Part shown: positions 22,819-63,657 of the stretch, piece by piece
Layout: each line of letters starts with the position of its first letter
Numbering within the stretch: the first letter of the stretch is position 1
DNA from: a virus
Reading direction: 5' to 3' (one strand)
IMG/VR virus record: IMGVR_UViG_3300033149_002975
Coordinates: 38,812-102,811 of that record
Length of the DNA stretch: 64,000 bases
Translations under genes and position numbers: made by a program
The notes under the pieces: generated by a model
The model's database searches: none
Seen by the model: the letters and a program-made list of their open reading frames with translations, nothing else
What the model was told of the DNA's origin: nothing

Positions 22819-24351
22819 TTATTCATCTATTACTTTATTATCACTAGTAACTACCAATTCATCAGCAATTGCTGATTCACCGTCTATTAATATATCAATA
22901 CCCAACAACTTATCGCCGGTGGCAACCACGGTTTCAGGTTCTGGCTCAGGTTCGGGTTCCGGGGCCCCACCAAACACCCGCAATAATGGATAAGTTTCTG
23001 ATTCAGTTATCCACCAATCATTGTCAAAATCCCAATTGGTGAATGTTGCTTGCTGTTTCATTTCGGCGGTAGTCTTACCTTCAGCGTCCCCTTCATCCTC
23101 AGCACCACCGTCCACGGCTACCCCTGAAGTTTCAATATTCCAAAAAGAATTCGTTGCATATTGGGCAAATGTTGCGTCGTTAATATCTACTTCAACACCA
23201 GAAGCTATATTACCATTAAATTCCAAATCTATAAGAATGGAATCATCATCACTATCAAGTATGTTATACCACCCATCTGTATATTTGGCGTCATTAAATT
23301 CAACGGCTGCATACATTGAACCGGGAACCGTATTCTTGAATTCACCAGATTTGGTAAGTAAAACCTTGCCCCCTACACCTTCCGTTACCGCACAATGAGG
23401 ACTGGAAGTATAATCCACCAAATTCCAATGTAAATTTCCACAAAAACCACCAATGCGGGTCTTAGAAGATTGATCCCCTATATGGGTAAGTTTTCCCAAT
23501 GAATAACAATTGACACAATCCGTATTTATACTATCGCTACCTACAAAACCACCAAGATAGCACATAGAATCGGAAACAACCGTTACATCCACATCTGTCC
23601 AACAATTTAAGAAATACCCATTATTTGATTGTCCTATAAATCCAGCACCTATTGATGAAGAAACAATGGTCCCAGTAACATAACAATTTTTCACCGGAAA
23701 ACCTTTAGAAATACCAAAACCGAGACAAGCACCAATCATACCGGCACCGGATTTACAAGTAATATCAATATCTACCAACCCCAAATTTTTGATGGGGTTG
23801 TCGGTAAGAGAAGAATCTTGTCCTACGGATACATCTACCCCATTAGGTATAACGTGATTGAAGGGTAAATCAAGCACAATATAATCGTCATTAACCCCAA
23901 TTATATCATATGTACCATTTTCATACCAAATACTAACAAAATCTACAATCGCTTTCATTCCAACTTTTGAATGACCAAATCTGCCGGCCTGCGTTATCCT
24001 AACGTTGCCACCGTCATCCGACACTGCACCATCATCACAACTATCGACATCGGCTCCACTAACCGGATCTACTGCACCAAACAAACCCTGATTAACTTCG
24101 GTCGGACGATTTATTTTCATATTGGATATTATATGTCCTTGGCCGTCAAAAAATCCATTGAAAAAATCGCCGGAATTCCAAGATCCTATAGGCCACCAAC
24201 CCGTACCGTCCCCTTTTGGATCAACGCCTGTTAAATCCAAATCAGTGGTAAGTTTAAATAAATTGTCTTTCCATAATTTTCCGGCAAACTTCCCGGAAAG
24301 CAAGGTAAGATCAATTAAATCTTGAACGGAATCTATTGTGTACTCAGCCAC
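22819..24351 (-). CDS. GLUG-repeat fibre/adhesin
   Basis: 510 residues. It opens like bacterial GLUG proteins: an opening helix (IDSVQDLIDLTLLSGKFAGK), then LTTDLDLTG, WWPIGSWNSGDFFNGFFDGQ and glycine-rich strands such as CYLGGFVGSDS, NCYSLGKLTHIGD and TRIGGFCGNLH, consistent with a right-handed beta-helix. KTTAEMKQQATFTNWDFDND near residue 435 is a hallmark of the end of such repeats. A Pro-Glu linker (PEPEPEPEPE) and a short C-terminal domain follow. Most likely a tail fibre or capsid decoration that binds the host surface. No signal peptide, consistent with a virion protein. Confidence 0.7.
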   Translation of the reverse strand: MAEYTIDSVQDLIDLTLLSGKFAGKLWKDNLFKLTTDLDLTGVDPKGDGTGWWPIGSWNSGDFFNGFFDGQGHIISNMKINRPTEVNQGLFGAVDPVSGADVDSCDDGAVSDDGGNVRITQAGRFGHSKVGMKAIVDFVSIWYENGTYDIIGVNDDYIVLDLPFNHVIPNGVDVSVGQDSSLTDNPIKNLGLVDIDITCKSGAGMIGACLGFGISKGFPVKNCYVTGTIVSSSIGAGFIGQSNNGYFLNCWTDVDVTVVSDSMCYLGGFVGSDSINTDCVNCYSLGKLTHIGDQSSKTRIGGFCGNLHWNLVDYTSSPHCAVTEGVGGKVLLTKSGEFKNTVPGSMYAAVEFNDAKYTDGWYNILDSDDDSILIDLEFNGNIASGVEVDINDATFAQYATNSFWNIETSGVAVDGGAEDEGDAEGKTTAEMKQQATFTNWDFDNDWWITESETYPLLRVFGGAPEPEPEPEPETVVATGDKLLGIDILIDGESAIADELVVTSDNKVIDE

Positions 24352-25896: not shown

Positions 25897-27270
25897 TTAT
25901 TCTGTTTTGGTCGATTTATCCTCCGGTAATCTGGCACCGCGTAGATCGGCACCGCTCAACATTTCGTTTTTTGGCATCTTTGCACCAGACAAATCAGCAC
26001 CACGTAGATCGGCATCTTGTAAATCAGCCTTCTGTAAATCAGCACCAGGTAAGTCGGCGTTTCGTAAATCGGCGTTTCGCAAATCGGCGCCCCGTAGATC
26101 GGCGTCTTGTAAATTGGCATACGCCAAATCGACTTTTTGCAAATTGGCACCTTGCAAATTGGCACCATATAAATCCACATATGGTAGTCTAGCCCCCTGC
26201 AAATCAACATTCTGTAGATCGGCACTTCGTAGATTGGCACTGTGTAAATCGGCACCATGTAGATCGACACCCTGCAAATCAGCGCCGTGTAGATCTGCGC
26301 CGTGTAGATCTGCGTCTGGTTTTATTTTATATCCACGAACCTCAATTGGACGGGGTGGTATTCCCGTACCCCCTTCCTCATTAACTATTTCCTTCCGAAG
26401 AGATCTAAATATCTTACCAAATTCTTTCCATTTATTGCCTGGTATTTTTGATTCATTTCGATAAGTTGGTATCAAACTACTTAATTTATAATTCTTAATA
26501 AGTCCTAAACTGTTCAATTTATATCCACTAAATCCATGCCTTTTAAGTTCCGAAACCAATTTATCAATAACTTTATCCGCCGCATAATCCCCATCATCCA
26601 TAGAAAAATTGGAAGTAAATTCTATATCAAAAGTTTTTTGACCCAGATTGGGTGTTGCACACGTAACATTGGCTATATAATTATATGGTGCCCCATAAGC
26701 CTTGGCGGATTCTGTAACGGTCGGTTTATCCTTTGGCAATTTGGCGACCAGCAAATTGGCACCATCCATCAATCTGTCGTCTGGCATTTTAGCACCACGT
26801 AAATCAGCGTGATATAAATCAGCGTTTCGCAAATTGGCTCCTTCCAAATTAGCGCCCTGTAGGTTGGCTCCCTGTAGGTTGGCTCCCTGTAGGTTGGCGT
26901 ATTGCAATTTGGCTCCTTTCAAATCGACACCACGTAAATCAGCACCACGTAAATCGACACCACGTAAATCAGCACCACGTAAATTGGTATCCCGCAGGTT
27001 AGCGTTCCGTAAAGTGGCGCCATAAAATTTAACATCGTGTAAATCGGCGCCCGACAAATTGGTGTTTTGTAAATAGGCACCCTGTAAATTGGCGTCGTGT
27101 AGATCAATGCCCGACAAATCGGCGTCTGGGAAATAAACACTGTGTAAATCGGCACCGGGTTTTGCTTCGTATCCATTAATCTTAATGGGTGGTGCAGATT
27201 CCGTTAATGATTTTGATTCAGCTAACCTTTTTATTTTACCATCATCTACTATTTTATCAATAATGCCCAT
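25897..27270 (-). CDS. Pentapeptide-repeat protein with capsid-type leader and two repeat arrays
   Basis: 457 residues. A leader (see the 25008 gene for the match) ends in RLAES and SLTES. Two arrays of A(D/N)LxG pentapeptide repeats follow, each introduced by a near-identical phrase (INGYEAKPGADLHSV and VRGYKIKPDADLHGA). The first array covers about residues 40-165 and the second about 300-450. A unique region (residues 180-290, with ANVTCATPNLGQKTFDIEF) lies between. Pentapeptide proteins form right-handed quadrilateral beta-helices; some mimic DNA and inhibit gyrase or other DNA-binding enzymes. If packaged, it would enter the cell with the genome. Confidence 0.85.
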   Translation of the reverse strand: MGIIDKIVDDGKIKRLAESKSLTESAPPIKINGYEAKPGADLHSVYFPDADLSGIDLHDANLQGAYLQNTNLSGADLHDVKFYGATLRNANLRDTNLRGADLRGVDLRGADLRGVDLKGAKLQYANLQGANLQGANLQGANLEGANLRNADLYHADLRGAKMPDDRLMDGANLLVAKLPKDKPTVTESAKAYGAPYNYIANVTCATPNLGQKTFDIEFTSNFSMDDGDYAADKVIDKLVSELKRHGFSGYKLNSLGLIKNYKLSSLIPTYRNESKIPGNKWKEFGKIFRSLRKEIVNEEGGTGIPPRPIEVRGYKIKPDADLHGADLHGADLQGVDLHGADLHSANLRSADLQNVDLQGARLPYVDLYGANLQGANLQKVDLAYANLQDADLRGADLRNADLRNADLPGADLQKADLQDADLRGADLSGAKMPKNEMLSGADLRGARLPEDKSTKTE

Positions 27271-27280
27271 TACTATTTCC

Positions 27281-27982
27281 TCAATTCAAGGGTATCAACA
27301 CTTTTTGCATTTTATATTTACGTAATACTTTATTAATTTCAGTAGTTGGGACGCTCCACGACACGCCTCTGCCACCCAATACCACGATGCCGACCATTAG
27401 ATTTTTATAATACAAACCGCCACCAGAATCGCCTTGGTGTACTGAATAATTACAAAATATGTACGATGTATCAACCCCTAATACTTTATTGAATACCAAT
27501 CTGCGAAAATTGTTTTTCCAGACTTTCCCATATATGATATCGTTGTCCCATATTCCTAAAGAGTTTCCTATGTTGTATACGTGCATTCCCTTTTTCAAAT
27601 CATTTGAATCCCCAAATTTCACGGCCGGTAAACCTTTTGCCGGAATCTTAATAAGCCCGACATCCGATACCTGACTTTCATAATAAACGGAAGTTTTAAA
27701 ACTTCTTCCATCATTCAAAGTTACTTTTATATAATTGGCATCTTTAACACAATGTCCGGCGGTCAATATTAAACCGTTGGGGTCTATGATTACCCCACTG
27801 CCTATCCACTGTTGTGATATTTGATACCCAGAATATTCAACACCTTCTATTAATACATTGTACGTTATTTGTTCTTTTGCTACGTGTCTTTCAACACATA
27901 AAGTAGTCGTTATATAAGTAGCAAATATTGCGCCAACCATCATTGTAGCAACCAACGAATTTTTAATCAATTTACCAATCAT
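27281..27982 (-). CDS. Trypsin-like serine protease, membrane-anchored
   Basis: 233 residues. I take ATG 27982 as start: it overlaps the preceding stop (TGATG), although a TTG one codon earlier is possible. A hydrophobic segment at about residues 8-28 (signal or anchor) precedes a chymotrypsin-fold domain. LILTAGHCVKDA gives His77, SQVSDVGLIKI gives Asp107, and VHQGDSGGGLYY gives Ser186: a complete catalytic triad in the HtrA/trypsin order. No PDZ domain follows. Located in a block of membrane and lipoprotein genes. It could cleave host envelope or virion proteins; the target is unknown. Confidence 0.85.
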   Translation of the reverse strand: MIGKLIKNSLVATMMVGAIFATYITTTLCVERHVAKEQITYNVLIEGVEYSGYQISQQWIGSGVIIDPNGLILTAGHCVKDANYIKVTLNDGRSFKTSVYYESQVSDVGLIKIPAKGLPAVKFGDSNDLKKGMHVYNIGNSLGIWDNDIIYGKVWKNNFRRLVFNKVLGVDTSYIFCNYSVHQGDSGGGLYYKNLMVGIVVLGGRGVSWSVPTTEINKVLRKYKMQKVLIPLN

Positions 27983-28074
27983 CAACGATATCCCCAGTAT
28001 TTAACAATTTTATACAGTAAATAGCCTATACGTACTAAACAATAACTAATTATTATTTGGAGTAGAATTTTCAT
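27982..28074 (-). CDS. Possible 30-residue membrane peptide
   Basis: The frame opens with MKILLQIIISYCLVRIGYLL and is followed by YKIVKYWGYR, i.e. one transmembrane helix plus a basic tail. Its stop overlaps the start of the protease gene (TGATG), which suggests coupled translation. It overlaps the end of the lipoprotein gene by 29 bp and lacks a clear ribosome site, so it is tentative. Confidence 0.35.
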   Translation of the reverse strand: MKILLQIIISYCLVRIGYLLYKIVKYWGYR

Positions 28075-28660
28075 TTGATGTCTTTGCTTTTGGCGATTGT
28101 ATACTATCAACAATGGCTTTTGTCCCAGGATTTTGTACAGAATCGTGGGCACATATAAAATCATACATAACAGTATCCATAGTTAATTCTTTTCTATCTT
28201 TCAGTGCTTTTTTGAATAAATCGCCGCCTTTTATTATTTCTTTTAGTGCCTGATCCTTGACTTTTAAAGCTTTTACCCGTTTGTAAATGGAAAGTATCAC
28301 CAACAACCCAACACCCACTATAAGAATAAGTGCCAGTATGTCAACATATAATTGTGGGATTAATTTTACACGTTCAACAAACAATGCCAATCCCAATATT
28401 GAACCACAACCCAAAACTCCGGCCATAAAATTTCTCCAACCCATTGCACCGGCAGCAACCGATATTCCTATCCCCAAAATCCCAGCAACATTTAACCAAT
28501 TCATTTCCTTAACGGTTTCTATGACTACTTGTGGAACATGTGGTGCGGGCGGCCCAACTATTGGGCCTTCAACGATTTCCGATTGCTGGCAGCCAACGAT
28601 AAATAGACAAAGAGAAAAAACTATTACTGTTAGAAATTTAATATATTTCACTATAACCAC
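28046..28660 (-). CDS. Membrane lipoprotein of unknown function
   Basis: 204 residues. The N-terminus is a hydrophobic signal with a lipobox-like end (FIVGCQQ), so Cys24 would be lipidated. A Pro-rich spacer (GPPAPHVPQ) is followed by three hydrophobic segments (about residues 56-72, 78-92, 104-124), then a charged cytoplasmic-type tail (YKRVKALKVKDQALKEIIKG). Lipoproteins with several membrane spans are unusual, and in phages can belong to lysis or superinfection functions. It overlaps the gene upstream by ten bases and the small ORF downstream. Confidence 0.6.
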   Translation of the reverse strand: MVIVKYIKFLTVIVFSLCLFIVGCQQSEIVEGPIVGPPAPHVPQVVIETVKEMNWLNVAGILGIGISVAAGAMGWRNFMAGVLGCGSILGLALFVERVKLIPQLYVDILALILIVGVGLLVILSIYKRVKALKVKDQALKEIIKGGDLFKKALKDRKELTMDTVMYDFICAHDSVQNPGTKAIVDSIQSPKAKTSNENSTPNNN

Positions 28661-37093: not shown

Positions 37094-37356
37094 TGTATGA
37101 AATACTATTGAAAGTGGCTGTAATTGGTCTTGTTCTTATAACGATCAAGGCCATATTTGTTGGTTCAAGTTTTAATTTTTATTATTGGATAAAATTTGGT
37201 AAAATTTACACCAAATGGTATTTTGATGAAAAGCGGGCATCGTTTACTCGATACCTGTGTGATAATTGGGACACCGTTTGGTCTGAATACTACAGATTAA
37301 AAAATAGTAAAATAAGTAATTCACCAGAAGGGATACAAAAAGATGAAAATAGTTAA
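37093..37356 (+). CDS. Small single-span membrane protein
   Basis: 87 residues. N-terminal hydrophobic helix (ILLKVAVIGLVLITIKAIFV), then a basic, aromatic cytoplasmic-type part (FGKIYTKWYFDEKRASFTRY). No signal cleavage. It overlaps the following pentapeptide gene by 14 bp. Function unknown; possibly an envelope-directed early protein. Confidence 0.55.
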   Translation: MYEILLKVAVIGLVLITIKAIFVGSSFNFYYWIKFGKIYTKWYFDEKRASFTRYLCDNWDTVWSEYYRLKNSKISNSPEGIQKDENS

Positions 37357-38182
37357 TGGCTATAAAATAAAACCACACGCTGACCTGTGTAACGCTAACC
37401 TGTGTAACGCTGACCTGCGGGATGCTGGTCTATTTGGCGCTGATTTATATGGTGCCGACCTATATGGCGCTGACCTGTGTAACGCTATCCTGTGTAACGC
37501 TAACCTGTGTAACGCTGACCTGCGGGATGCTGATCTATATAGCGCTAGCTTGTGGAGCGCTAACCTATATAGCACTAGCCTGCGGGATGCCGACCTGCGG
37601 GATGCTGACCTGCGGGATGCTGACCTGCGGGATGCTGACCTGCGGGATGCTGATCTATATAGCGCTAACCTGCGAAATGCTAACCTGCGAAATGCTAACC
37701 TGCAGGGTGCTGACCTGCGGGGCGCTGACCTGCGGGATGCTAACCTGCGAAATGCTGACCTGCAGGGTGCTGACCTGCGGGGCGCTGACCTGCGGGGCGC
37801 TGACCTGCGGGGCGCTAATTTATCGGATGTTAAAGGTTTACTTATTGCTTCAGATTGGCTGTCTCAGTTCAAAAAAACTTCACGTGGGATTATAGTTTAT
37901 AAAGCATTTGGAGATACATATTTTTCACAAGAAAAATGGGGGAAAATTGAGGCCAAAAAAGTCCTAAAAGAAATTCCAAATCCTCTGCGTACAAATGATT
38001 GTGGTTGTGGAGTAAATTTTGGAACATTAAATTGGGTAAAGAGCGTTTTTGGGCATAAAAATGACACAGTTATACGAGAATGTTTAATCCCATATGAGAA
38101 ACTGGCTGATGTTATTGTGCCATATAATACTAATGGTAAAGCAAGATGTGGGTATTTAATTGTTGGAAAAATAGTAAAATAA
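37343..38182 (+). CDS. Pentapeptide-repeat protein with DUF5758-like C-terminal domain
   Basis: 279 residues. Residues 12-160 are pentapeptide repeats (e.g. CNANLCNADLRDADL). From about 165 a second domain follows: WLSQFKKTSRGIIVYKAFGD, PLRTNDCGCGVNFGTLNWV and YNTNGKARCGYLIVG, matching DUF5758, a domain often fused to pentapeptide repeats. The repeats use CTG/GAC/GCT codons and runs of identical 15-mers, unlike the TTG/TTA-rich paralogue at 33912. This suggests recent repeat expansion or a different origin. Confidence 0.8.
   Translation: MKIVNGYKIKPHADLCNANLCNADLRDAGLFGADLYGADLYGADLCNAILCNANLCNADLRDADLYSASLWSANLYSTSLRDADLRDADLRDADLRDADLRDADLYSANLRNANLRNANLQGADLRGADLRDANLRNADLQGADLRGADLRGADLRGANLSDVKGLLIASDWLSQFKKTSRGIIVYKAFGDTYFSQEKWGKIEAKKVLKEIPNPLRTNDCGCGVNFGTLNWVKSVFGHKNDTVIRECLIPYEKLADVIVPYNTNGKARCGYLIVGKIVK
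37579..37653. repeat. Near-perfect 15-bp tandem repeats GACCTGCGGGATGCT
   Basis: About five successive copies of a 15-bp unit, encoding DLRDA, with one-base variation in the first. Less perfect copies extend on both sides. Such uniformity at DNA level points to recent slippage-driven expansion inside the 37343 pentapeptide gene. Confidence 0.8.
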
Positions 38183-38230: not shown

Positions 38231-39613
38231 ATGGGGATGGCAGATACAGTCGTATCACAATCCATACAGGATTCATTTTGTTATCTGGCAATAACTGATA
38301 CAAAATTTCTGCAGGCAGCTCGTCGGTCGATAAAACCACAATATTTTTCTTCCCAAGTTACTGAAGATATAATATCAATATGTTATTCGTATTTTGACCA
38401 ATTTGGTGTTGCACCGGATGCGCACTTTCACGACGAATTGGCTAGGTTTCTTCAAGATAAAACTGACGAAAAAAAGGATTTATATATAAAATATCTAACA
38501 AAACTCCAGTCAATTAATAAACCAAACCAAGCCTATATAATTAGTAGAATAAATAATTTTGTTCAAGCCAGAGAATTTGAAAAAGCTGCAGTTAATTTTA
38601 TAAAATTGGCAAAAGCTGGGGATTATGAAAAAGCAAAACAAATAATGACTTCCGCCATTCGTTCTGGAATAGCTAAAGAAGAAGTTGGTTTGAAATATTT
38701 AGAATGTAAGACACCGACTTATTATGAATCAGAATCCGGCAATGAATATCTAATGGGCACTGGATTTAAGACTTTGGATAAAAAATTGCCGCGAGGATTA
38801 AGGAGGACCGATTTTCTATTAATTGAAGGTGGGTATAAGGGTAAAAAATCGTGGTCGTGCGTAAGTTTTGGTAGAGAAGGATTAATACACGGATTAAAAG
38901 TTCTTCATATAACACACGAATTATCACTGGAAGAGACGGAGATGAGATACGATAGACAATTGGGTGGAATGACCAGCTACAACAAAGACCCCGTCATAAT
39001 TGAAAATATAGATTCTGAGGGAAATTTGATATCGACTGAAAAAATTATTGCTGATTCAGTATTTGATATTTCAAAAGTTATGCGTGCAAGGAAACGCATC
39101 GCAAGATTTGGTGGTGAATTGATTATCAAAAAATATCCTATGGGCCACTGTACAATGGATGAAATTATAAGATATCTTGATTACCTTGAAGCTTATGAGG
39201 ATTTTATTCCGGATGTGGTGATCAATGATTACATTGAAAAAATGAAATTACCAAAAATGGAAAGACGCGATGCAATAAATGATTATTATATGTTAAGTAA
39301 AGGAATAGCAGATGACAGGAAATTGTTAATGATTACGGTTTCACAAGTCACCAGAGACGCATTACAAAAACGTACATTAGGACAAAAAGATGCAGCAGAA
39401 GATATAAGAAAGATAGGAAATGCTGATATGGTATTGGGTATAAGCCAAACGAAAACACAATCAATCGAAAATCGAATGCAATGTACAGTGATGGCAAACC
39501 GCCACGGCGTGCAAGACATCGGTTGTGTATTTGCAACAAATCTTGACTTAGGACAATTAATAGTTAAAGATTGGGAAATCAAAAACAATATACAAGAAGC
39601 CGCAGGGGATTAA
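38231..39613 (+). CDS. Replicative helicase, DnaB-like with variant Walker A
   Basis: 460 residues. The N-terminal helical domain (to about 150) is followed by a RecA-fold domain: FLLIEGGYKGKKSWSCVSFG near residues 196-215, where the expected GxxxxGKS reads GGYKGKKS, with Lys in place of the Gly before KS. LKVLHITHELSLEETEMRYD follows, typical of DnaB motif 1a. Later parts include PDVVINDYIEKMK (Walker B-like) and MITVSQVTRDALQKR (motif 3 with Gln). It unwinds DNA at the fork. The first 37 bp were duplicated upstream at 37007. Confidence 0.78.
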   Translation: MGMADTVVSQSIQDSFCYLAITDTKFLQAARRSIKPQYFSSQVTEDIISICYSYFDQFGVAPDAHFHDELARFLQDKTDEKKDLYIKYLTKLQSINKPNQAYIISRINNFVQAREFEKAAVNFIKLAKAGDYEKAKQIMTSAIRSGIAKEEVGLKYLECKTPTYYESESGNEYLMGTGFKTLDKKLPRGLRRTDFLLIEGGYKGKKSWSCVSFGREGLIHGLKVLHITHELSLEETEMRYDRQLGGMTSYNKDPVIIENIDSEGNLISTEKIIADSVFDISKVMRARKRIARFGGELIIKKYPMGHCTMDEIIRYLDYLEAYEDFIPDVVINDYIEKMKLPKMERRDAINDYYMLSKGIADDRKLLMITVSQVTRDALQKRTLGQKDAAEDIRKIGNADMVLGISQTKTQSIENRMQCTVMANRHGVQDIGCVFATNLDLGQLIVKDWEIKNNIQEAAGD

Positions 39614-48496: not shown

Positions 48497-49573
48497 ATGA
48501 AAAATTCGGAGATAAAAATATTACAGGGATTAATTGAAACCCCATCACCGTCCGGATTTGAAGAAAAAATAGCCGAAATGATTAAGAATGAACTGCTTAA
48601 CTATTTACCAAGAACAAAGGTTAAAATAGATGAACAGAAAAATGTAATTGCAATCATTAAGGGAAAATCCAATAAAACAATAATAATCGATGCACACAGT
48701 GACCAAATTGGATTTATAGTTAATAATATAGACAAAGAGGGTTTTATAAGTTTACAATATATAGGGGGCGGTGATAAATCAATACTTAGTGCTAGAAATT
48801 TAATAATATTGACGGATAAAGGAAAAATAAATGCTGTTGTAAATAGAAAACATTCACATCTAATTGATGATGAAGATGATGAATCAATAGTGGAAATGAA
48901 AGATGTCGTAGTAGATATTGGAATAAGAAAAAAGAGAAGCGTTAAATCGAAAGTAAAAATTGGTGACCCGGTAGTTTATAAACCGCATTTTAGCCATTTA
49001 ACGGAAAGTTATTACTCCGGCTGTGGGTTTGATGATAAATCGGGGTGTTTTATATTAATAGAAACAATAAAAAACATTATAAAATCAAAAATCAAGCCAA
49101 TTCCTACATTAATTTTTACTTTCTCAACACAAGAAGAAGTTGGGGGCAAAAAGTTCAAACCGATTGTTAATAAATACAAACCAAATTTGTTTATAGAAGT
49201 TGACGCGACATTTGCAACCGATTGGAATGATGATGGTGTCTTGGAAAGAGAATCAGGAAATTGCAAACTTGGAGGCGGCATAGTTTTATTCCGTGGTGTA
49301 GATATAGATAAAAAGAGCTTAAAATTAATAACATCAATAGCAAGAAAAAATAGAATAAAAATTCAGTACCAGGCATCAACTGGTGACGGTGGAACAATAA
49401 ATTATTGTGTATCGTCGCTTGAAAATGGAATTAAAACTTTACTTATCGGTATTCCACTAAGAAATATGCATACGCCTGTTGAAATAATCAATTTAAGAGA
49501 TTTGAATTATGGTTCCCAACTTTTAACCAATTTCTTATTGAATAAAAGAATTGATATGATTTTTAATAATTAA
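48497..49573 (+). CDS. M42-family metallopeptidase (aminopeptidase-like)
   Basis: 358 residues, normal length for M42 aminopeptidases. Metal-ligand motifs in order: TIIIDAHSDQIGFIV (His67, Asp69), YYSGCGFDDKSGCFILI (bridging Asp), FTFSTQEEVGGKKF (catalytic Glu-Glu), LFIEVDATFATDW (Asp) and LRNMHTPVEIINLRDL (His). This set is complete. M42 enzymes are large cytoplasmic tetrahedral aminopeptidases or glucanases in cells. A phage copy could recycle host peptides or degrade a host defence peptide; this is inference. Confidence 0.83.
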   Translation: MKNSEIKILQGLIETPSPSGFEEKIAEMIKNELLNYLPRTKVKIDEQKNVIAIIKGKSNKTIIIDAHSDQIGFIVNNIDKEGFISLQYIGGGDKSILSARNLIILTDKGKINAVVNRKHSHLIDDEDDESIVEMKDVVVDIGIRKKRSVKSKVKIGDPVVYKPHFSHLTESYYSGCGFDDKSGCFILIETIKNIIKSKIKPIPTLIFTFSTQEEVGGKKFKPIVNKYKPNLFIEVDATFATDWNDDGVLERESGNCKLGGGIVLFRGVDIDKKSLKLITSIARKNRIKIQYQASTGDGGTINYCVSSLENGIKTLLIGIPLRNMHTPVEIINLRDLNYGSQLLTNFLLNKRIDMIFNN

Positions 49574-50667: not shown

Positions 50668-50892
50668 ATGCAATTAAGTCCTGGAATTTATCACAAAGTT
50701 AAATGCGTTGATACGTTTAGTCCTGATATGCACATACAACAATTGTCAGATATTGAGATTGCGTGTCAAATAGCAAACAAAAAGGCAAAAAAGGGGGTGA
50801 AAATCATATGTTATTATGAAGATATAAGATGTGGGTTACAATTAATGGGCTTAAAAATCAATTGTAGTGATTGTCCATTTAGGAAATCATAA
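50668..50892 (+). CDS. Small Cys-rich hypothetical protein
   Basis: 74 residues between the clamp and polymerase genes; stop and next ATG share a base. Contains YHKVKCVDTFSPDMHIQQLS and a C-terminal KINCSDCPFRKS. May bind metal. Function unknown; possibly a replication accessory by position. Confidence 0.55.
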   Translation: MQLSPGIYHKVKCVDTFSPDMHIQQLSDIEIACQIANKKAKKGVKIICYYEDIRCGLQLMGLKINCSDCPFRKS

Positions 50893-53459
50893 TGAATGAA
50901 CAAGGTACATTTTTTATTGGGGATATTGCAGAGATAACTGGTTCATCAAAAATCGGAAAACGCAGTCGTACTAGACATTCGACGAAAAAATCCGAACCAA
51001 AAATATTTGATTGCGAAACTTGCGGTCTGTATAAATCTTGCAAATCACCAAAAATCACTAAATTTGGAAAAGGTGAAAGATCCATATTATTTGTGGGTCT
51101 TTGTCCGGGTAGACAGGAAGATAATTCAAGACCCCCTACACCATTTGTTGGTGCTTCCGGTAATTTCTTGAGTAAAAATTGTGAATTGTGTGGTATTGAT
51201 TTATACAACGATTGTTGGAGAACGAATATCGTAGAATGCTATCCTGGAAGAGATGCCAGGGGCAGGGACAAAAAACCAACTAATACACAAATAAAATGCT
51301 GTTCACAAAATATCCAAAGAGAAATTGAGGAATGCAGACCACAATTGATTATTTGTCTTGGGACGGAAGCCACGAAAGCTATATTGAAAACTACTGCGAT
51401 TTCCTCACCAAATGTTACACAACTTCACGGAAAAGTTTTCCCATACCACAAATTGAATTGCTGGGTCGGTGTTTTATATCACCCATCTTATTTTTTACAC
51501 AAAAAGAATAATGATGATGGAGTGTCCAGCGAATTAATATTTACTTACGATTTAGCAAACATTTTGGGGGTCTTGGATTTACCATTACCAAAACCATTTA
51601 CAAATGAGAATAATGAATTTGTTACGAATGTTGACGAAGCATTAAAAATTTTTGATAAATTTTCGAAATCAGAAGATGTAGTAGCATTTGATTATGAATG
51701 CACAAGCTTGTCACCACTAACACCGGGTGCAAGAATTATTAATATATCATTATCTAATGATAAAAATAAAGGTTATTATATACCAATAGACCTAAAAGAT
51801 AACATCACCAACAAATATTTTTGGAATGATATTGATAGGCAAAAAATCAAAGAAGCTCTGAAAAGTTTTATAACAAGTGATTCACCAAAGACAATCCAAA
51901 ATTATCAGATGGAGGAATTGTGGAGCAGGGTAGTTCTTAACGTATCAATAAATCATTTTGTCCACGACACGATGATTTCCAATCACGTAATAAATAATAA
52001 AACCGGTACAAATAATTTAGCATTTCAAGCATATGAATTTAATGGTCAGGAATATAAAAACGAAATTAATATAGAAAAAATTGAAGAATGTGATATAGAA
52101 AAACAAGTTAATTATGCGTGTTTTGACAGCCGTCATACAATAGCTGCTTATCATGATCAACACAAACAATTAAAGTCCGATAAAAAATTAGCGGCTTTTA
52201 ATGAAATGTTTACCCGCAGTTTACCAACATTGGTTAATTTGAAAGAACGTGGAATAAGAGTCTCCGTGGAAGCTTTGGACGACGTTGAATCAAAATTTAC
52301 TAGAAAATTAAATGAAAAATTAGCAGCTATACGGCAAAACGAGCAAGTGCGGAAATTTGAAAAAGATACTGGAACAACATTCAATCCAAATTCACCAAAA
52401 CAATGGAATAAAATATTATACGGTGGGTATAAATTACCACCAATATTAACTGACGCCGGTAATGAATCAACGAGCAATGAAGCATTGGAAATTATATTGA
52501 CAAAAACTGGCAATCCGGAAGTCAAAGAATTGTTGGGGCACTTATTTAGGTATAGAAAATATGTAGATGTTATAAAAAAAGTTGCTTCTAAACCATCTGA
52601 AAATTCAAAGCAAATTGGTTTGTTTAGAAGATTAATATATCCAGATGGGAAAATTCACCCAACGACAAATCTTCATACAGTGCCTACCTATCGCTCATCG
52701 GTGACTAATCCACCAACACAAAATATGTATAAACACGACGCAGAGTGTAGAGAAGTCCGTCGATGTTTTATTCCGGAACCCGGACATGTTTTATTAGAGG
52801 GTGATTATAAAGCCCACGAAGCACGAAATATAGGAATGGCATCTGGTGATGTAGAATTAATTAGACAAACCGTGGCAAAAATTGATATTCATAAAAAATG
52901 GGCGGGAAAAATTTATAATGTACCAATAGATAAAGTATCAAAGGATCAAAAGTGGTTAGGCAAAAACGGGTTTGTATTTCCATCAATTTATGGATCAAAA
53001 CCACCGGCAATTTCTAAACATTTAGGTGTTTCCAAAGATTTAATTAGTAGATTACAGGAAGAATTATGGGCTGAGTTTTCTGGTGTTCACGAATGGCAAA
53101 AACGGCTGATAAAATTCTACAATGAAAACGGATATGTCGAAGGTTTAACAGGTTACAGATGTTATGGACCGTTGACTGCATATCAAATTTTCAATTTTCC
53201 CATACAAGGGGGAAGCTTTCACATATTATTAGATTCAATGGTTGAACTTGATAATTATTTAATAAATAATGGATTTAAAAGTCGAATAATCAATGAATGC
53301 CACGATGCAATAATTATAGACACGGACCCGGAAGAAATAGATGACGTGGTGGCTGCCGGTACTGAAATAATGACAAGGAAACGATGGCCGTGGATGACAG
53401 TCCCTCTCGATGTGTCGTGGGAGTGTGGACCAAATTACTTTGAAATGAAAGAAATATAA
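50892..53459 (+). CDS. Family A DNA polymerase fused to a family-4-like uracil-DNA glycosylase
   Basis: 855 residues. Residues 35-215 resemble an iron-sulfur UDG: CETCGLYKSC near 41, ILFVGLCPGRQEDNS near 66, PFVGASGNFL, ECYPGRDARGRD, PQLIICLGTEA and VGVLYHPSYFL near 190. Residues 240-410 are a 3'-5' exonuclease (VVAFDYECTSLSP with Asp and Glu near 266, ACFDSRHTIAAY as the late Asp). The remainder is PolA: RSSVTNPPTQNM, motif A LLEGDYKAHEARNIG (635), motif B KWLGKNGFVFPSIYG (684-698), motif C NECHDAIIIDTD (801). Motif A departs from DYSQIELR, motif C reads HDA rather than HDE, and motif B lacks a clear O-helix Arg. Confidence 0.85.
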   Translation: MNEQGTFFIGDIAEITGSSKIGKRSRTRHSTKKSEPKIFDCETCGLYKSCKSPKITKFGKGERSILFVGLCPGRQEDNSRPPTPFVGASGNFLSKNCELCGIDLYNDCWRTNIVECYPGRDARGRDKKPTNTQIKCCSQNIQREIEECRPQLIICLGTEATKAILKTTAISSPNVTQLHGKVFPYHKLNCWVGVLYHPSYFLHKKNNDDGVSSELIFTYDLANILGVLDLPLPKPFTNENNEFVTNVDEALKIFDKFSKSEDVVAFDYECTSLSPLTPGARIINISLSNDKNKGYYIPIDLKDNITNKYFWNDIDRQKIKEALKSFITSDSPKTIQNYQMEELWSRVVLNVSINHFVHDTMISNHVINNKTGTNNLAFQAYEFNGQEYKNEINIEKIEECDIEKQVNYACFDSRHTIAAYHDQHKQLKSDKKLAAFNEMFTRSLPTLVNLKERGIRVSVEALDDVESKFTRKLNEKLAAIRQNEQVRKFEKDTGTTFNPNSPKQWNKILYGGYKLPPILTDAGNESTSNEALEIILTKTGNPEVKELLGHLFRYRKYVDVIKKVASKPSENSKQIGLFRRLIYPDGKIHPTTNLHTVPTYRSSVTNPPTQNMYKHDAECREVRRCFIPEPGHVLLEGDYKAHEARNIGMASGDVELIRQTVAKIDIHKKWAGKIYNVPIDKVSKDQKWLGKNGFVFPSIYGSKPPAISKHLGVSKDLISRLQEELWAEFSGVHEWQKRLIKFYNENGYVEGLTGYRCYGPLTAYQIFNFPIQGGSFHILLDSMVELDNYLINNGFKSRIINECHDAIIIDTDPEEIDDVVAAGTEIMTRKRWPWMTVPLDVSWECGPNYFEMKEI

Positions 53460-57093: not shown

Positions 57094-58215
57094 ATGGCAA
57101 AAAAAGATAAAAAAAGAAATAATTCTGATGAATTGGGTGAAATCACCAATGAAATTGCAGATTCTGCTGCAGCCGCGAATGAAGTAACACAATTACCAGC
57201 CGTCAGCGAATTTTGTCCAACGGGTTGTACACTTCTTGATTTAGCAATTGCCAACAAATTACCTGGTGGGATTCCTATTGGAAGAATTGTTCATATATTT
57301 GGTGCCGGGTCAACGTGTAAAACAGTTTTAGGGACTACGGTATTGGGCTATGCACAAAGATCCGGAAAACTTGCTTATATGGCAGATGTTGAACATACAT
57401 TGGATCCGGTGTTTGCTCGTATTTATGGATTGGATTGCTCTGATTCTAAAACCTTTAAATTGACAACAAAATTAGACCCGGATCCTAAAAAAGAAAATTC
57501 CATAGAAGGGATGTTTGAAAAATATTTGGGAGGTATTATATACCCAAATGGTCGTGGAAAAAAGATGAATACCGCACCAAAAGTAATAGTTATAGATTCG
57601 ATTACCGCCCTGCCTTCGGAGGTTGAACTTGAGGAGTCGATGGAAAAATCGTCATACGCCGTTACCAGAGCTAAACAAATGAGTCGTGGTTTCAGAAAAT
57701 ATATATTCCCCATAGCAACGTCCAATACTACACTGTTTTGTATTGACCAAACAAGAACTAACATCAATGCGATGTTTGGTGCCCCAAGAGAAGTAACATC
57801 AGGTGGCCGTGCACTGGAATTTTATTCTTCAGTTCAGGTTCTCCTAAAACACGATTCCAACATAACAAATAGCAAAGGGGTGACAACCGGTATATGGGTT
57901 AAGTTTAAAATAATAAAGAATAAAGTGTCTCCCCCTTTCCGCAGTGGACGTTTCAAAATTACTTGGGAGTATGGATTAGATGATATTTCAAGTAATTTGT
58001 ATTTCCTGGCCGTTGATCAAGTTGGAAAAACTGCAGCGAAAAATCGTTCAACGAAATTATCATTATTTGGTGAGGAACATCAAATACATCATTGGGTTAA
58101 AGTTATCGAAGATAATAATATGGAGGAAGAATTACGACAGGAAGTATGGAAAGTTTGGAAATTAATGTACAGAGAAGAACCCGTTGGTGTTGAGAGAAAA
58201 GCCAGGGTATGGTAG
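57094..58215 (+). CDS. RecA/UvsX-type recombinase with variant Walker A
   Basis: 373 residues. GCTLLDLAIANKLPGGIPIG, then IVHIFGAGSTCKTVLGTTVL: the P-loop reads GAGSTCKT (residues 70-77), with Cys replacing the Gly before KT. LAYMADVEHTLDPVFARIYG carries the Glu of the RecA fold and APKVIVIDSITALPSEVEL Walker B. TLFCIDQTRTNINAMFGAPR corresponds to loop L1 and REVTSGGRALEFYSS to L2. Catalyses strand exchange. AAAGGAAAAG ribosome site. Second enzyme in this window whose Walker A lacks that Gly. Confidence 0.85.
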   Translation: MAKKDKKRNNSDELGEITNEIADSAAAANEVTQLPAVSEFCPTGCTLLDLAIANKLPGGIPIGRIVHIFGAGSTCKTVLGTTVLGYAQRSGKLAYMADVEHTLDPVFARIYGLDCSDSKTFKLTTKLDPDPKKENSIEGMFEKYLGGIIYPNGRGKKMNTAPKVIVIDSITALPSEVELEESMEKSSYAVTRAKQMSRGFRKYIFPIATSNTTLFCIDQTRTNINAMFGAPREVTSGGRALEFYSSVQVLLKHDSNITNSKGVTTGIWVKFKIIKNKVSPPFRSGRFKITWEYGLDDISSNLYFLAVDQVGKTAAKNRSTKLSLFGEEHQIHHWVKVIEDNNMEEELRQEVWKVWKLMYREEPVGVERKARVW

Positions 58216-58755
58216 ATGAAACGTGTTGAATCAACTGTTATTGGTGTTGATCCCGGATTGAAAGGTGCCATAGTTGTAATTTTCCCGGACGGTGTAACAC
58301 TGGCGTTTGATATGCCGGTAATTGTTGTAAAAGAAAAAAAGAAAAAATCCAAAAAGCACGTGTATGATATAGACAAAATTATTAAAATTATAAAGGATAT
58401 AAAATCTGTAACGTCTTTATGTTGGAACAAAAATATTATAGTATTTTTAGAAAAAGTTCAAATATTACCAAGGGGATTTACAATAAAAAGTAATTTGGGA
58501 TTAGCAAGGTGCGAAGCAATATTCGAAACGATACTGCATTTTCTTGATATAAAATATGAATTTGTAAATCCACGCGTATGGCAACGTTTTTATGGGATTT
58601 CCAGCAAAAATGGGGATACTAAAGAACAATCAATCAAAAAAGCTAAAGAATTATATCCGCGAATAATTTTAGAAACCAAAAGAGGCAGGGTACTGGACGG
58701 GAGAGCAGACGCCGTACTGGTGGCCAATTATGGTTTGGATAAGATGAATAAATGA
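58216..58755 (+). CDS. RuvC-like Holliday-junction nuclease
   Basis: 179 residues, abutting the RecA stop. STVIGVDPGLKGAIVVIFPD (Asp in DPG), NIIVFLEKVQILPRGFTIKS (Glu), LDIKYEFVNPRVWQRFYGIS and GRVLDGRADAVLVANYGLDK (Asp) give the acidic triad of RuvC-fold resolvases, in the phage/poxvirus-like short form. Likely resolves recombination or branched DNA before packaging. Overlaps the next gene by four bases. Confidence 0.85.
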   Translation: MKRVESTVIGVDPGLKGAIVVIFPDGVTLAFDMPVIVVKEKKKKSKKHVYDIDKIIKIIKDIKSVTSLCWNKNIIVFLEKVQILPRGFTIKSNLGLARCEAIFETILHFLDIKYEFVNPRVWQRFYGISSKNGDTKEQSIKKAKELYPRIILETKRGRVLDGRADAVLVANYGLDKMNK

Positions 58756-59876
58756 TTAAATCTATAAAACTTAAAAATTTATTCTCCCACGAAGATTCAT
58801 TATTAAATTTTTCCCCTGGTGTAAATATTATATGTGGGAAAAGTAATGATGGTAAATCTGCGATCCGTCGAGCCATATGTTGGGTAGCCGACAATCGCCC
58901 ACTTGGTGTGGGGATGATAAGATATTATTACATAAACGGCGAAAAACATTTAACAGAAGAAGCGTTGGCGGAATTAGTAAAAGATGCAAATGGAAAAATA
59001 ATCACCGTTTCTAGATCAAAAACCAAAAATTCTAATGGTAAATATACGATAGCTGATGGTGAGTCAAAAATTTCATTAAGTTCTTTTGGTCAGGCACCAC
59101 CCCCAGAAGTATTGGATGTAATAAATTTAAATGAAATAAACATTCAACGCCAACTTTCCCCATATTTTCTGGCATTTGATCCACCCGGACAAGTAGCAAC
59201 TTTTCTCCGTTCTATCACGAAATTGAACGAAATCGATTCAGTGTGCAATTTAATTTCCAGCAAATTAAGAAAAGTACAAAAAGAAATTGACAGTAATAAA
59301 TCAGAATTGTGTGATACGAATGCGCGTATCGGGGAATTGGAAAGGATAAATCTTGAATCATTGGAACAAAAAATCAAAGAATCGAAAAAAATAATAGATA
59401 CGAATACGGTTCTTGAGACAAAAATAAAAAAATTATTTACTATTGTGTGTCAAATCGATGACTTGTTAAAAAAATCAATAAATATTCCGGATAATTGTGA
59501 AAAGATATTACAATCATCGTTGTTTTTAAAGAACCAACACAATGAATTAATCAATGATTATCGTAATCTTAAATCAATAATTTTTAATATAAAGTCTATT
59601 AGAAATACAGAAATAAACGTTGTGGACGCCAATGGAATTTTGGAACAAAACGAAAAAATCATTAAAACGTATAATAAATATAAGAATAATTATGACAAAT
59701 TGTTCAAAATAATAGAGAAAATAAATAAAATTAACGCATTAACTAATGATATTAAACACAAATTGGAATTGGAAGAAAGATCTAAAAAGGAAATAGAAGA
59801 ACAATTAGTCGAATGTCCAAAATGTGGGGCGAAATTAACAGAAGAATCAAAACATAGAGTATTAAACGATTATTAA
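58752..59876 (+). CDS. SbcC/Rad50-like N-terminal half with zinc hook
   Basis: 374 residues. MIKSIKLKNLFSHEDSLLNF, then VNIICGKSNDGKSAIRRAIC, the SMC-type Walker A; residues 110-160 carry NLNEINIQRQLSPYFLAFDP (Q-loop region). From 165 on is coiled coil, ending ECPKCGAKLTEES at residue 354, a CPxC zinc-hook motif 20 residues before the stop. There is no Walker B or ABC signature: these are in a separate gene at 63034. Together with SbcD at 60256 this is a gp46/gp47-like nuclease. Confidence 0.83.
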   Translation: MIKSIKLKNLFSHEDSLLNFSPGVNIICGKSNDGKSAIRRAICWVADNRPLGVGMIRYYYINGEKHLTEEALAELVKDANGKIITVSRSKTKNSNGKYTIADGESKISLSSFGQAPPPEVLDVINLNEINIQRQLSPYFLAFDPPGQVATFLRSITKLNEIDSVCNLISSKLRKVQKEIDSNKSELCDTNARIGELERINLESLEQKIKESKKIIDTNTVLETKIKKLFTIVCQIDDLLKKSINIPDNCEKILQSSLFLKNQHNELINDYRNLKSIIFNIKSIRNTEINVVDANGILEQNEKIIKTYNKYKNNYDKLFKIIEKINKINALTNDIKHKLELEERSKKEIEEQLVECPKCGAKLTEESKHRVLNDY

Positions 59877-59887
59877 AAGGAGAATAA

Positions 59888-60256
59888 ATGAGAACCACAA
59901 TTGAAATAACGAGAGAAGAATTTTTGAATTTAAAAGACGGAAGAGAAGAGGGTTATTCTGAATTGGACGGTAGGTATTTCTGCCGCTTTAGAGACAAAGA
60001 ATTTTTACAAAAGCAAGTTGATGCAATTATTGCGGGTAAATCCGAGAATGTTGTATTTTTGATGGAAGTGAGTGTGTCTCCTGCGCTATATCGTTCGGCT
60101 GTAGAAGAGAAACCGTCCCATTACAAACCACCCGAAATAAAAATGACAGTAAGAAAAGCGACTCTTGTCGAAGAACACGCAAAAGAAATCAAATTATCTG
60201 TAACTCCGGAGGATTTTCTACGCGACAAATACATTAAATCTGAAACGGGGATATAA
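59888..60256 (+). CDS. Hypothetical protein between SbcC and SbcD genes
   Basis: 122 residues, AAAAGGAG ribosome site seven bases before ATG. MRTTIEITREEFLNLKDGRE, RYFCRFRDKEFLQKQVDAII and ALYRSAVEEKPSHYKPPEIK; no clear domain. Stop overlaps the SbcD start. Perhaps an accessory of the nuclease by position. Confidence 0.5.
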   Translation: MRTTIEITREEFLNLKDGREEGYSELDGRYFCRFRDKEFLQKQVDAIIAGKSENVVFLMEVSVSPALYRSAVEEKPSHYKPPEIKMTVRKATLVEEHAKEIKLSVTPEDFLRDKYIKSETGI

Positions 60257-61167
60257 TGATTCTTGGTATATTAGGAGATACACAATTCACAACGTCACAA
60301 CCAAAGCGTAGGTTGGATAATTATTGGGAAACTCAGAAATCAAAATTTAATGAAGCGTTGGAAATATTTCGTGATAAAAAATGTGACAGAATTATCCAAC
60401 CTGGGGATTTAGTTAACAGCCCCAATGTATCAAATATTGTGATGTCAGCATTGATTAATATGCTTAAAAAATATCGTGTGCAATTGGATGTGGCGTGGGG
60501 CAATCACGATGTTTCCGGTGTCTCGTCAGCAACATTACCGACTAGCCCGCTTTCTGTATTAAAAGCCGCCAGGGTCATACACGTGTTAAATAATGAACCA
60601 CACCAATTCGGAAACGTGATGATATATGGTGCTGGATTTAATGAAGAACCGCCAATACCCAAAAATCAAAATGATTATAATATACTGGTAATTCACGCTA
60701 TGATAGGCAACCGGCCATTATTCCCAAACCAGGAATTAAAAAACCCAAAAAATTTTCTAAAACAGCATCCACATTATAATTTGGTTGTTTGTGGTCACTA
60801 TCATTACAGGTTTATAGAAACTTATGAAGGACGAACAATTCTTAATGCGGGGGCGTTGGTTCGTGAATCAATAGGTAAATTTGATTTGGAACACAAACCC
60901 GGTGTAATTATATTTGATACCGATACGAATAGAGTAGAAATTGTCGAATTAACAATAGAACCGGCAGAAAGTGTATTTGATCTTTCTCCGATAAAAAAAC
61001 GGGATAATGAAATACTCAATAAATTTATCGAGAGACTGAAAAATAGAGGCAAATCAGCAATTTCCGGTTGGAAGCAAATTTTAGTAAAAATCACAGATGA
61101 AAAAAACACAAGTGATGGTGGGAAATTGGTGATAGACCAATGTCTGGAAGAAATAAACGCGAAATAA
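60256..61167 (+). CDS. SbcD/Mre11-like nuclease subunit (gp47-like)
   Basis: 303 residues. Metallophosphoesterase motifs in order: MILGILGDTQFTTSQPKRRL (GDTQ, where DxH is usual), DRIIQPGDLVNSPN (GD), DVAWGNHDVSGVSS (GNHD), ILVIHAMIGNRPLF (H) and LVVCGHYHYRFIETY (GHxH). NAGALVRESIGKFDLEHKP is typical of Mre11. Ends with a helical capping region. Forms a DNA-end processing complex with SbcC halves at 58752 and 63034. Gln in place of the first conserved His is notable. Confidence 0.87.
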   Translation: MILGILGDTQFTTSQPKRRLDNYWETQKSKFNEALEIFRDKKCDRIIQPGDLVNSPNVSNIVMSALINMLKKYRVQLDVAWGNHDVSGVSSATLPTSPLSVLKAARVIHVLNNEPHQFGNVMIYGAGFNEEPPIPKNQNDYNILVIHAMIGNRPLFPNQELKNPKNFLKQHPHYNLVVCGHYHYRFIETYEGRTILNAGALVRESIGKFDLEHKPGVIIFDTDTNRVEIVELTIEPAESVFDLSPIKKRDNEILNKFIERLKNRGKSAISGWKQILVKITDEKNTSDGGKLVIDQCLEEINAK

Positions 61168-61452: not shown

Positions 61453-61663
61453 TCCGGAAGTAATTGGTAGAGCTATAATTAAAAAGGATAAGAAATCCGG
61501 TGCTAAATATTGGCTAACCACTGACAGTAATTGGCTTGACCGTGATGAATTACCATTTAATGAACCGCTATCGATTTCTGTTAGATTATTTAAAGCCGGA
61601 ACGACGATAGAGATTGTTGGTGAAATAGAAGAAAATATAAAAATAGAGAAAAAACAGAAATGA
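61379..61663 (+). CDS. Hypothetical protein, start uncertain
   Basis: 94 residues if the ATG at 61379 is used, which overlaps the coiled-coil gene by 74 bp; a TTG near 61424 would give less overlap. The convincing part is NPEVIGRAIIKKDKKSGAKY, LTTDSNWLDRDELPFNEPLS and AGTTIEIVGEIEEN, a small beta-rich domain. The stop overlaps the next ATG (ATGA), supporting that it is expressed. Function unknown. Confidence 0.5.
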   Translation: MRKNLLTWIQKWLKSLLRPKINLRNPEVIGRAIIKKDKKSGAKYWLTTDSNWLDRDELPFNEPLSISVRLFKAGTTIEIVGEIEENIKIEKKQK

Positions 61664-62220
61664 TTGTGAGAAATATATCAATAATTTTTAATATTTTTTT
61701 ATTTGTTTCATTTACAAATACATCTATTCAAGCCAATCTGGTAGATATGTCAATTGAACCAGCAGTAGATACAGTTAGTGTTGGTGATTATTTCAATGTG
61801 GGCATATGGCTACGCGATGATGGGCAGACTGGTATTACTACTGTTGTTGTTAATTTTGGTTGGGATGAAAACTTTTTGCAATTAAATAACGTGAGCCAGG
61901 GAGATTATAAGTGGAACAGTTTTGTTGAAAATAACCTTTCCGGCAATCCGGATTATACAATATCCGCAAAACGACCCAGATCTAACCCAACAACGGATTT
62001 CCTTTTCGCTTCAGTAAATTTAAAAGCTTTGGCCCAAACTCCTAATACTAATATTGTGATATATAATGTGGGTCTTTCCCCGACACAAGTTCTTGTTAAG
62101 AAGAATAATGTAACGGGGTCGTTTATAGATGGAAATATTATAATCGTTCCTGAACCAACAACAATATGCATCCTGGGTCTTGGTTGTCTGCTGTTTTGCA
62201 AAAATGGAAAAATTAAATGA
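61660..62220 (+). CDS. Secreted cohesin-like protein with PEP-CTERM sorting signal
   Basis: 186 residues. N-terminal signal peptide (MIVRNISIIFNIFLFVSFTN, cleavage likely after SIQA). The middle (residues 30-155) is beta-rich, with VDTVSVGDYFNVGIWLRDD, VVVNFGWDENFLQLNNVSQG and FLFASVNLKALAQTPNTNI, like a cohesin or BACON-type sandwich domain. The C-terminus is IIVPEPTTICILGLGCLLF followed by CKNGKIK: Val-Pro-Glu-Pro, a hydrophobic helix and a basic tail, the PEP-CTERM/exosortase signal. Phage-encoded examples appear rare. Overlaps both neighbours by four bases. Would be processed by a host exosortase. Confidence 0.82.
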   Translation: MIVRNISIIFNIFLFVSFTNTSIQANLVDMSIEPAVDTVSVGDYFNVGIWLRDDGQTGITTVVVNFGWDENFLQLNNVSQGDYKWNSFVENNLSGNPDYTISAKRPRSNPTTDFLFASVNLKALAQTPNTNIVIYNVGLSPTQVLVKKNNVTGSFIDGNIIIVPEPTTICILGLGCLLFCKNGKIK

Positions 62221-62744
62221 ATAATTTATATAAAGAAATCATTGGCAATGCGTTGGAACCAGCAATTAATCCAACAGATTTTTATAAAATTGGCAAAGTG
62301 ATAATTACTCCACACGTTTGCAACAACGCCGGGAGATTTGGGGCTGGGTTTGCAAAAACTGTTGCTGAGAAATATCCAGAAGTTAAAGAACGTTATTTAC
62401 AGGAAATTACCCAGGTGCCGACACAACTTTGTCTTGGTGATTGTCAATTCATACCGGTTAATATGCATGATCCACGTATAGTAATGAAAACATTTGTTGT
62501 TAATATGATAGCACAAGATGGTGTACGAGGACCAAATAACCCAATACCGTTAAAATACGAAGCACTAATCAAATGTATGGTATACATTAGAGAATCTATT
62601 TTACCAGAAATGAAATTTAATTCGTCGATACATTGTTGTAAATTTGGATCCGGTTTAGCTGGTGGTAATTGGGATTTCATCAAAATATTAATCAAGGAAA
62701 TTTGGTGTGATCACGGAATACCGGTAACAGTATATAAATTATAA
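62217..62744 (+). CDS. Macrodomain protein (ADP-ribose / Appr-1''-p type)
   Basis: 175 residues. KVIITPHVCNNAGRFGAGFA followed by KTVAEKYPEVKERY is the macrodomain ADP-ribose-binding phrase (NN.G.fGAGfA). KFGSGLAGGNWDFIKILIK near the C-terminus is the second loop (GsGlAGG.W). Members bind ADP-ribose or hydrolyse it from proteins or phosphates, including Appr-1''-phosphate made during tRNA repair. Fits either counter-defence against ADP-ribosylation or RNA repair with the RNA ligase at 43124. Follows the PEP-CTERM gene. Confidence 0.85.
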   Translation: MNNLYKEIIGNALEPAINPTDFYKIGKVIITPHVCNNAGRFGAGFAKTVAEKYPEVKERYLQEITQVPTQLCLGDCQFIPVNMHDPRIVMKTFVVNMIAQDGVRGPNNPIPLKYEALIKCMVYIRESILPEMKFNSSIHCCKFGSGLAGGNWDFIKILIKEIWCDHGIPVTVYKL

Positions 62745-62770: not shown

Positions 62771-63037
62771 ATGTTTTTAGATGATGTTGGTGGCGTTGAT
62801 TTTTCATGCGCCAATTTGCCAGACAATAAACCAATAACAATTCTCGATCTGTTATGGGTTGACAATATTTTATGGGGAATGACGTCCATTCCTTTTGAAA
62901 AAGCACAATCACTGGTTAATGCTGATACAGGAAAAGTAAAAAACGTACCATTACCAATTTTGATAACCCAAAAGGAATTTACGAATTTGATTAAATCTTT
63001 ATACGGCAAATCGGCTTTTATTGGGAATGGTCAATGA
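62771..63037 (+). CDS. Small paralogous protein, MFLDDVGG family (copy 2)
   Basis: 88 residues. MFLDDVGGVDFSCANLPDNK matches copy 1 at 34586 in 17 or more of 20 positions; the C-terminal part is longer and diverged (ILITQKEFTNLIKSLYGKSA). GGAG lies ten bases before the start, as in copy 1. Stop overlaps the next gene. Function unknown. Confidence 0.6.
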   Translation: MFLDDVGGVDFSCANLPDNKPITILDLLWVDNILWGMTSIPFEKAQSLVNADTGKVKNVPLPILITQKEFTNLIKSLYGKSAFIGNGQ

Positions 63038-63657
63038 ATTTGGATAAATACACAAAATTTTTAAATACCCAAAAAGCAAAGCTTGAGATATTAACTGACA
63101 AACGGTCGAATCTCGAATTCACATTGGCTTCATTAAACAAATCATTATCCGATATAAGAGAAGCTGATGATGTAATGAATGCAGTCTCTATATTGGCACA
63201 AGAAAATTCTAAAAATGTTATTGAAGAATTGGTAACTTTAGCTCTACAATCAGTATACGGTGAAAGTCATTCTTTTGAAATCGACAATAAAATAAATCGT
63301 GGACAGCCGGAGACATTTTTGTATGTAGTAGAAAACGGTGAGCGTTGTTTATTAAAAAATGCCGATGATTATTTTGGTGGTGGGGTAGTTGATGTATGCA
63401 GTTTTGCTTTGCGAGTCGTATCCTGGGCCATTCAGGATGAAAAATCGGATAATGTATTGCTGTTGGACGAGCCAATGAAAAATCTGGATTCGTCCAGATT
63501 AACACTAGCTGGAGAAATGATTAAGGAATTATCTAAAGCTTTAAATCTACAATTCATAATAATAACACATGAAGATGAATTAAAGATGACTGGTGATTCA
63601 ACATTTCTTGTCATAAAAACTAATAATATATCAAATGTGGAGAAAACAGATGTTTAA
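63034..63657 (+). CDS. SbcC/Rad50-like C-terminal half
   Basis: 207 residues. Begins with coiled coil (KLEILTDKRSNLEFTLASLN), then the ATPase C-lobe: DDYFGGGVVDVCSFALRVVS, with GGGVVD where LSGGE is usual, NVLLLDEPMKNLDSSRL (Walker B and D-loop) and NLQFIIITHEDELKM (His switch). It completes the ATPase half at 58752; the sum (581 residues) is about the length of T4 gp46 (560). The pieces are 3.2 kb apart and must assemble as separate chains. It overlaps the previous gene by four bases. Confidence 0.8.
   Translation: MNLDKYTKFLNTQKAKLEILTDKRSNLEFTLASLNKSLSDIREADDVMNAVSILAQENSKNVIEELVTLALQSVYGESHSFEIDNKINRGQPETFLYVVENGERCLLKNADDYFGGGVVDVCSFALRVVSWAIQDEKSDNVLLLDEPMKNLDSSRLTLAGEMIKELSKALNLQFIIITHEDELKMTGDSTFLVIKTNNISNVEKTDV

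Follow-up and report, generated by a model that had tools for sequence, protein, structure and literature searches.

The gene at positions 61660–62220 of the window (the whole 64,000-nucleotide stretch analysed here, positions 38,812 to 102,811 of the IMG/VR virus record IMGVR_UViG_3300033149_002975) encodes a 186-residue protein that, judged from its sequence, has the full architecture of a PEP-CTERM exosortase substrate, and we put the probability that this phage protein is displayed on the host surface by way of the host exosortase at roughly 60%. Tagged proteins also occur on three further phage-type contigs, and phages of this kind probably use the sorting enzyme of their Planctomycetota-type hosts to decorate the host surface. 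The phage origin of the gene, the three-part architecture of its product, the homology to host-type proteins and the recurrence in related phages are supported by the sequence, and we infer the host class, the timing of expression, and the cleavage, location, binding and effect of the protein.

The open reading frame runs from an ATG at 61660 to a TGA ending at 62220 (186 codons plus stop, + strand). A signal peptide is predicted at the N-terminus (residues 1–25, MIVRNISIIFNIFLFVSFTNTSIQA; 61660–61734, + strand), called from hydropathy alone; the hydrophobic core is clear (hydropathy 2.74 over 11 residues), the homologues share a signal peptide, and the cleavage point was placed by eye. It is followed by a cohesin-like domain (residues 36–146; 61765–62097, + strand), which scores 25.3 bits against PF00963 (E 1.9e-5), above the curated cut-off of 24.1. 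The C-terminus reads IIVPEPTTICILGLGCLLFCKNGKIK, with VPEP at residue 163 of 186 opening the sorting tail (residues 163–186, VPEPTTICILGLGCLLFCKNGKIK; 62146–62217, + strand), the basic end of which, KNGKIK, is modest. By itself the tail motif is borderline, since PF07589 scores it at 17.2 bits in the protein and 19.2 bits in a six-frame search (E 2.4e-4 for the record), both below the cut-off of 20.7, and TIGR02595 exceeds its cut-off of 16 only when the tail is scored alone (19.0 bits, compared to 14.4 bits in the whole protein). A chance motif was rejected because the tail stands directly before the stop codon, follows a signal peptide and a cohesin domain, and recurs in homologues that share the three-part build over their full length. 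Hydropathy, PF00963, TIGR02595 and the homologues therefore agree with the original prediction, which had read the signal peptide, cohesin-like domain and VPEP-hydrophobic-basic tail as a full exosortase substrate. Bacterial substrates of the PEP-CTERM/exosortase system (TIGR02595/PF07589; EpsH family PF09721) are likewise built of a signal peptide, a variable extracellular body and a tail of PEP, hydrophobic stretch and basic end. A single-sequence AlphaFold2 model had a mean pLDDT of 36 and was not used for fold searching, and weak matches to designed trefoils in a sequence search of the PDB were rejected.

That the gene is phage-encoded, as had been proposed, is borne out by its surroundings. 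The virus record is 102,811 bp long with a 114-bp terminal direct repeat, which indicates a circular, complete genome of about 102.7 kb; it encodes a head protease, major capsid protein, portal and DNA polymerase, and cultured phages are distant from it (portal 27% identical to that of Bacillus phage SP-15, terminase 30% to those of Rhizobium phages). The PEP-CTERM gene sits among replication and recombination genes, on the strand opposite to the head and tail genes, in a rightward (+ strand) run consisting of RecA (57094–58215; PF00154, 1.6e-42), a DUF3882-type protein (58216–58755), the N-terminal half of SbcC/Rad50 (58752–59876; PF13476, 5.4e-9), a baeRF-like ORF, an SbcD-like nuclease (a metallophosphoesterase, 60256–61167; PF12850, 1.1e-9), two small ORFs, the PEP-CTERM gene, a macro-domain-like protein (62217–62744; phrog_335 'phosphatase'), a small ORF and the C-terminal half of SbcC/Rad50 (63034–63657; PF02463, 1.7e-8). 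The reading frame overlaps each neighbour by the four bases ATGA: its ATG lies across the stop codon of the preceding small ORF (61457–61663, with a related sequence in the related phage G003, described below), and its stop codon across the ATG of the macro-domain-like gene. Codon composition lies at the edge of the neighbours' range, but close to it. Host-gene contamination of the contig was rejected on the strength of these overlaps, and a chimeric assembly was rejected because a second contig (IMGVR_UViG_3300033150_000694; G001, locus L002) carries the unchanged PEP-CTERM gene and is collinear with the present genome, at 100% identity, along 12.3 kb and a further 2.2 kb spanning the circular join.

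Other features of this genome were noted alongside. The N-terminal half of the split SbcC/Rad50 ends at a CPKCG zinc-hook-like motif, with the C-terminal half about 3 kb downstream, and G003 has the same split (L012:4722–5999 and 7557–8225). One ORF (window 50892–53459) fuses a family-4 uracil-DNA glycosylase domain (residues 41–210) to a PolA-type DNA polymerase. An adenylosuccinate synthetase homologue outside the window (L003 4455–5504) has PurZ as its best NCBIfam match (208.9 bits, below the cut-off of 300) and the polymerase of the same genome has a DpoZ-like score, which together make a 2-aminoadenine genome possible. A trypsin-like protease with an N-terminal hydrophobic stretch (27281–27985) adjoins a likely lipoprotein (LFIVGC; 28046–28660), both further phage proteins with predicted export. 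The phage also encodes an M42 family aminopeptidase (48497–49573; PF05343, 9e-63), two pentapeptide-repeat proteins (25897–27270 and 37343–38182) and a gene block resembling, by sequence, glycosyltransferases and an FkbM-type methyltransferase (L003 14828 to L004 1748).

When a one-genome-per-species collection was scanned with the tail, a single locus was confirmed (L057); it lies in an uncultured planctomycete MAG, many genes of which close with tails like VPEPTTICLLGLGALSLIRRKK. Within the Planctomycetota class of this genome, homologues of the phage protein were found in 26 of 397 genomes at E ≤ 1e-3, several matching mainly the tail; about six of the 26 align over most of the protein, with signal peptide, cohesin-like body and PEP-CTERM, the best at E 5.5e-10 over residues 21–179. 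Planctomycetota proteins that combine a cohesin domain with PEP-CTERM (L060, L061, L063, L064 and L069) share the three parts, with 23–28% identity in a multiple alignment and 33–34% in the best local alignments; they differ in being cellular genes of higher GC, and in its tail the phage protein comes closer to the VPEPTTICLLGLG type seen in other planctomycetes. In a phylum-wide sample, small at 324 genomes and searched at a stricter threshold (E ≤ 1e-5), one genome matched, itself inside the class set, and no homologue was found outside it. The exosortase profile PF09721 scored above its cut-off in all 26 genomes with matching proteins, candidate hosts drawn entirely from the class set, and a profile search found it absent from both the present phage (G000) and G003; because the phage has no exosortase, it would have to depend on that of its host. 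The kinship with bacterial exosortase substrates thus extends to the protein body, homologues of which lie in exosortase-bearing Planctomycetota, the difference being that here the substrate is encoded by a phage without an exosortase of its own.

The tails closest to that of the phage are also planctomycete (VPEPTTICLLGLGALSLIRRKK, TPEPTTICLLGLGGLALLKKRRA), in a comparison biased by the fetching of host loci through similarity to the query. The original prediction had called the tail Phycisphaerae-type and read the host from it. Comparison of tail and domain with planctomycete families, by finding full-length homologues in one Planctomycetota class and the nearest tails in planctomycetes, upholds this as far as the resemblance to exosortase-bearing Planctomycetota goes, and suggests hosts of Planctomycetota type; Phycisphaerae itself is the probable class, as read from tail style. 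CRISPR-spacer matches, from which the host was also to be identified, gave no direct link: when 20 kb of the phage sequence was compared with the 397 class genomes in a spacer-type search, no CRISPR spacer was found, the matches being set aside since they concentrate in an acidic repeat (21142), in pentapeptide repeats (26834) and in a GLUG-type motif (23000–23080). The last of these (window 22819–24351) shows 75–88% nucleotide identity to several class genomes over 50–80 bases, possibly a sign of exchange with hosts. A terminase profile run over the same 397 genomes found one prophage-like region (G348:C445:100000–139999; L093, L094), with terminase, portal and capsid 24%, 28% and 24% identical and a protease relative too, which is too distant to assign a host.

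Relatives of the phage were gathered with its SbcD and terminase. A PF07589 search of 35 related viral records found PEP-CTERM genes only in G000, its twin G001 and G003 (IMGVR_UViG_3300035158_000812), with no match at E ≤ 1 in 31 other records; since most related contigs, mostly fragments, have no such gene, it is not essential. G003, which is 48% identical to G000 in terminase, 57% in portal, 54% in RecA and 46% in SbcD, has two tandem PEP-CTERM genes between RecA and a RuvC-like gene. One encodes a C39-like peptidase, matched by PF13529 at 3.4e-8; the product of the other is a choice-of-anchor-R protein that reaches 22.9 bits against NF041539, short of the cut-off of 30. The same two-gene set is found in L176 (IMGVR_UViG_3300001751_000012; portal 52% identical to G000), which came from the pattern survey described below, at a different genome position, beside a DNA methyltransferase gene instead. 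The C39 proteins of G003 and L176 share 55% identity; one has a large insertion, and both have the WWYGCSPT, GHSM-GYGY and V-DTW motifs expected of a Cys-His-Asp peptidase. On another viral contig (L228) a C39-PEP gene stands with no partner gene beside it. The same Planctomycetota class also has C39 homologues, up to 55% identical, several of which end in a PEP-CTERM tail.

The premise that phage PEP-CTERM genes are exceptional proved too narrow. At least 120 IMG/VR contigs, some of them likely prophage flanks or host DNA, matched in a pattern survey, and 78 of the 88 fetched have the tail at an ORF end, so that PEP-CTERM genes on viral contigs are not rare. A 228-kb viral contig (that behind L104, IMGVR_UViG_3300035698_010479) encodes two PEP-CTERM proteins (L104 2509–3171 and 4179–4835). 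Among cultured phages, tblastn found no close relative of the protein, and two tail-only searches of their records, both insensitive, found no PEP-CTERM genes. The different tagged genes of related phages, together with the survey counts, suggest that phage cargo using the host exosortase is recurrent.

In the mechanism we propose, a gene of host origin encodes a surface protein that would be made by the phage during infection, co-expressed with the replication and recombination genes of its operon. Export would be by Sec, the C-terminal helix would hold the protein in the inner membrane, and the host exosortase would process it at VPEP, passing it to the cell surface or extracellular matrix, where the cohesin-like domain could bind host surface partners and so alter the infected cell's surface. 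The domain may make contact with dockerins of host surface proteins, given 14–71 dockerin matches per genome in six candidate-host genomes and none in the phages by profile search; a cohesin fold need not mean dockerin binding.

The most likely effect of display would be to hinder the adsorption of competing phages, and we propose superinfection exclusion as the specific outcome tentatively. The main alternative is that surface or matrix is changed for another end, with cell-cell or cell-EPS contact strengthened or loosened, and infected cells kept in or freed from aggregates. In other bacteria, flocs and biofilms form with the participation of PEP-CTERM proteins and exosortases (PMC12188702, PMC9850573), and exosortase systems affect surface and EPS; a Nostoc strain from which an exosortase was deleted lost motility and biofilm formation and had less PEP-CTERM protein in its exoproteome (PMC12188702). 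A secreted C39 peptidase of the kind found in the related phages (WWYGCSPT, GHSM-GYGY) could also cut matrix proteins, whereas the cohesin protein has no enzymatic domain, and we consider this alternative rather unlikely. That the gene is a passenger from a host, retained by chance with no role for the phage, would fit its sporadic distribution among relatives and the host-type protein body; the intact reading frame, the start and stop codon overlaps in a compact operon, a codon composition near that of the phage, and the repeated carriage of PEP-CTERM genes by relatives, including the two-gene set at two positions, make it improbable. The choice-of-anchor-R domain of the G003 PEP-CTERM protein recurs in a tail-region protein of G000 and cohesin-like beta-sandwiches would suit virion decoration, but a role as virion structural or decoration protein, in which the sorting tail is no more than a membrane anchor, is highly improbable, as a signal peptide and sorting tail are unexpected on virion proteins and the gene lies away from the head and tail genes, among replication genes on the other strand.

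Returning to display through the host exosortase, it is conceivable, if doubtful as a generalisation, that phages of exosortase-bearing Planctomycetota carry interchangeable cargo (the cohesin protein, or the pair of C39 and choice-of-anchor-R proteins) that the host exosortase addresses to the infected-cell surface, a general and overlooked takeover route. The anchor-R domain displayed in G003 and L176, being related to a domain of a phage tail-region protein, might on this reading cover the receptor and keep competing phages away.

Phage surface proteins of lysogenic conversion and superinfection exclusion are comparable in being products of phage genes that alter the host envelope; the known factors are lipoproteins, membrane proteins and O-antigen enzymes, and none is known to use exosortase sorting, itself a widespread, poorly understood surface system. 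The open-access papers that the searches listed mention PEP-CTERM and phage together only incidentally, save for TIGR03118 proteins, which PMC11003980 places among the horizontally acquired genes of Yellowstone hot-spring viral contigs. These resemble the present protein in having a putative exosortase-interaction C-terminus on viral contigs, and differ in coming from a transfer survey that, in the passage concerned, calls their function unknown and does not discuss phage gene context or host exosortase (PMC11003980). The substrates described here are of a known kind, and the supply of exosortase substrates by phages as exchangeable cargo within one phage group appears undescribed in the open-access literature searched, save for that mention (PMC11003980).

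If display through the host exosortase is correct, phages exploit exosortase sorting, and the proteins would be candidate superinfection or biofilm factors of a new class, with a sequence tag by which to find them in viral data. The tail type, set against the exosortase type of the host, would offer a host-range clue for uncultivated phages, and the proteins would provide small natural substrates for the study of exosortases.
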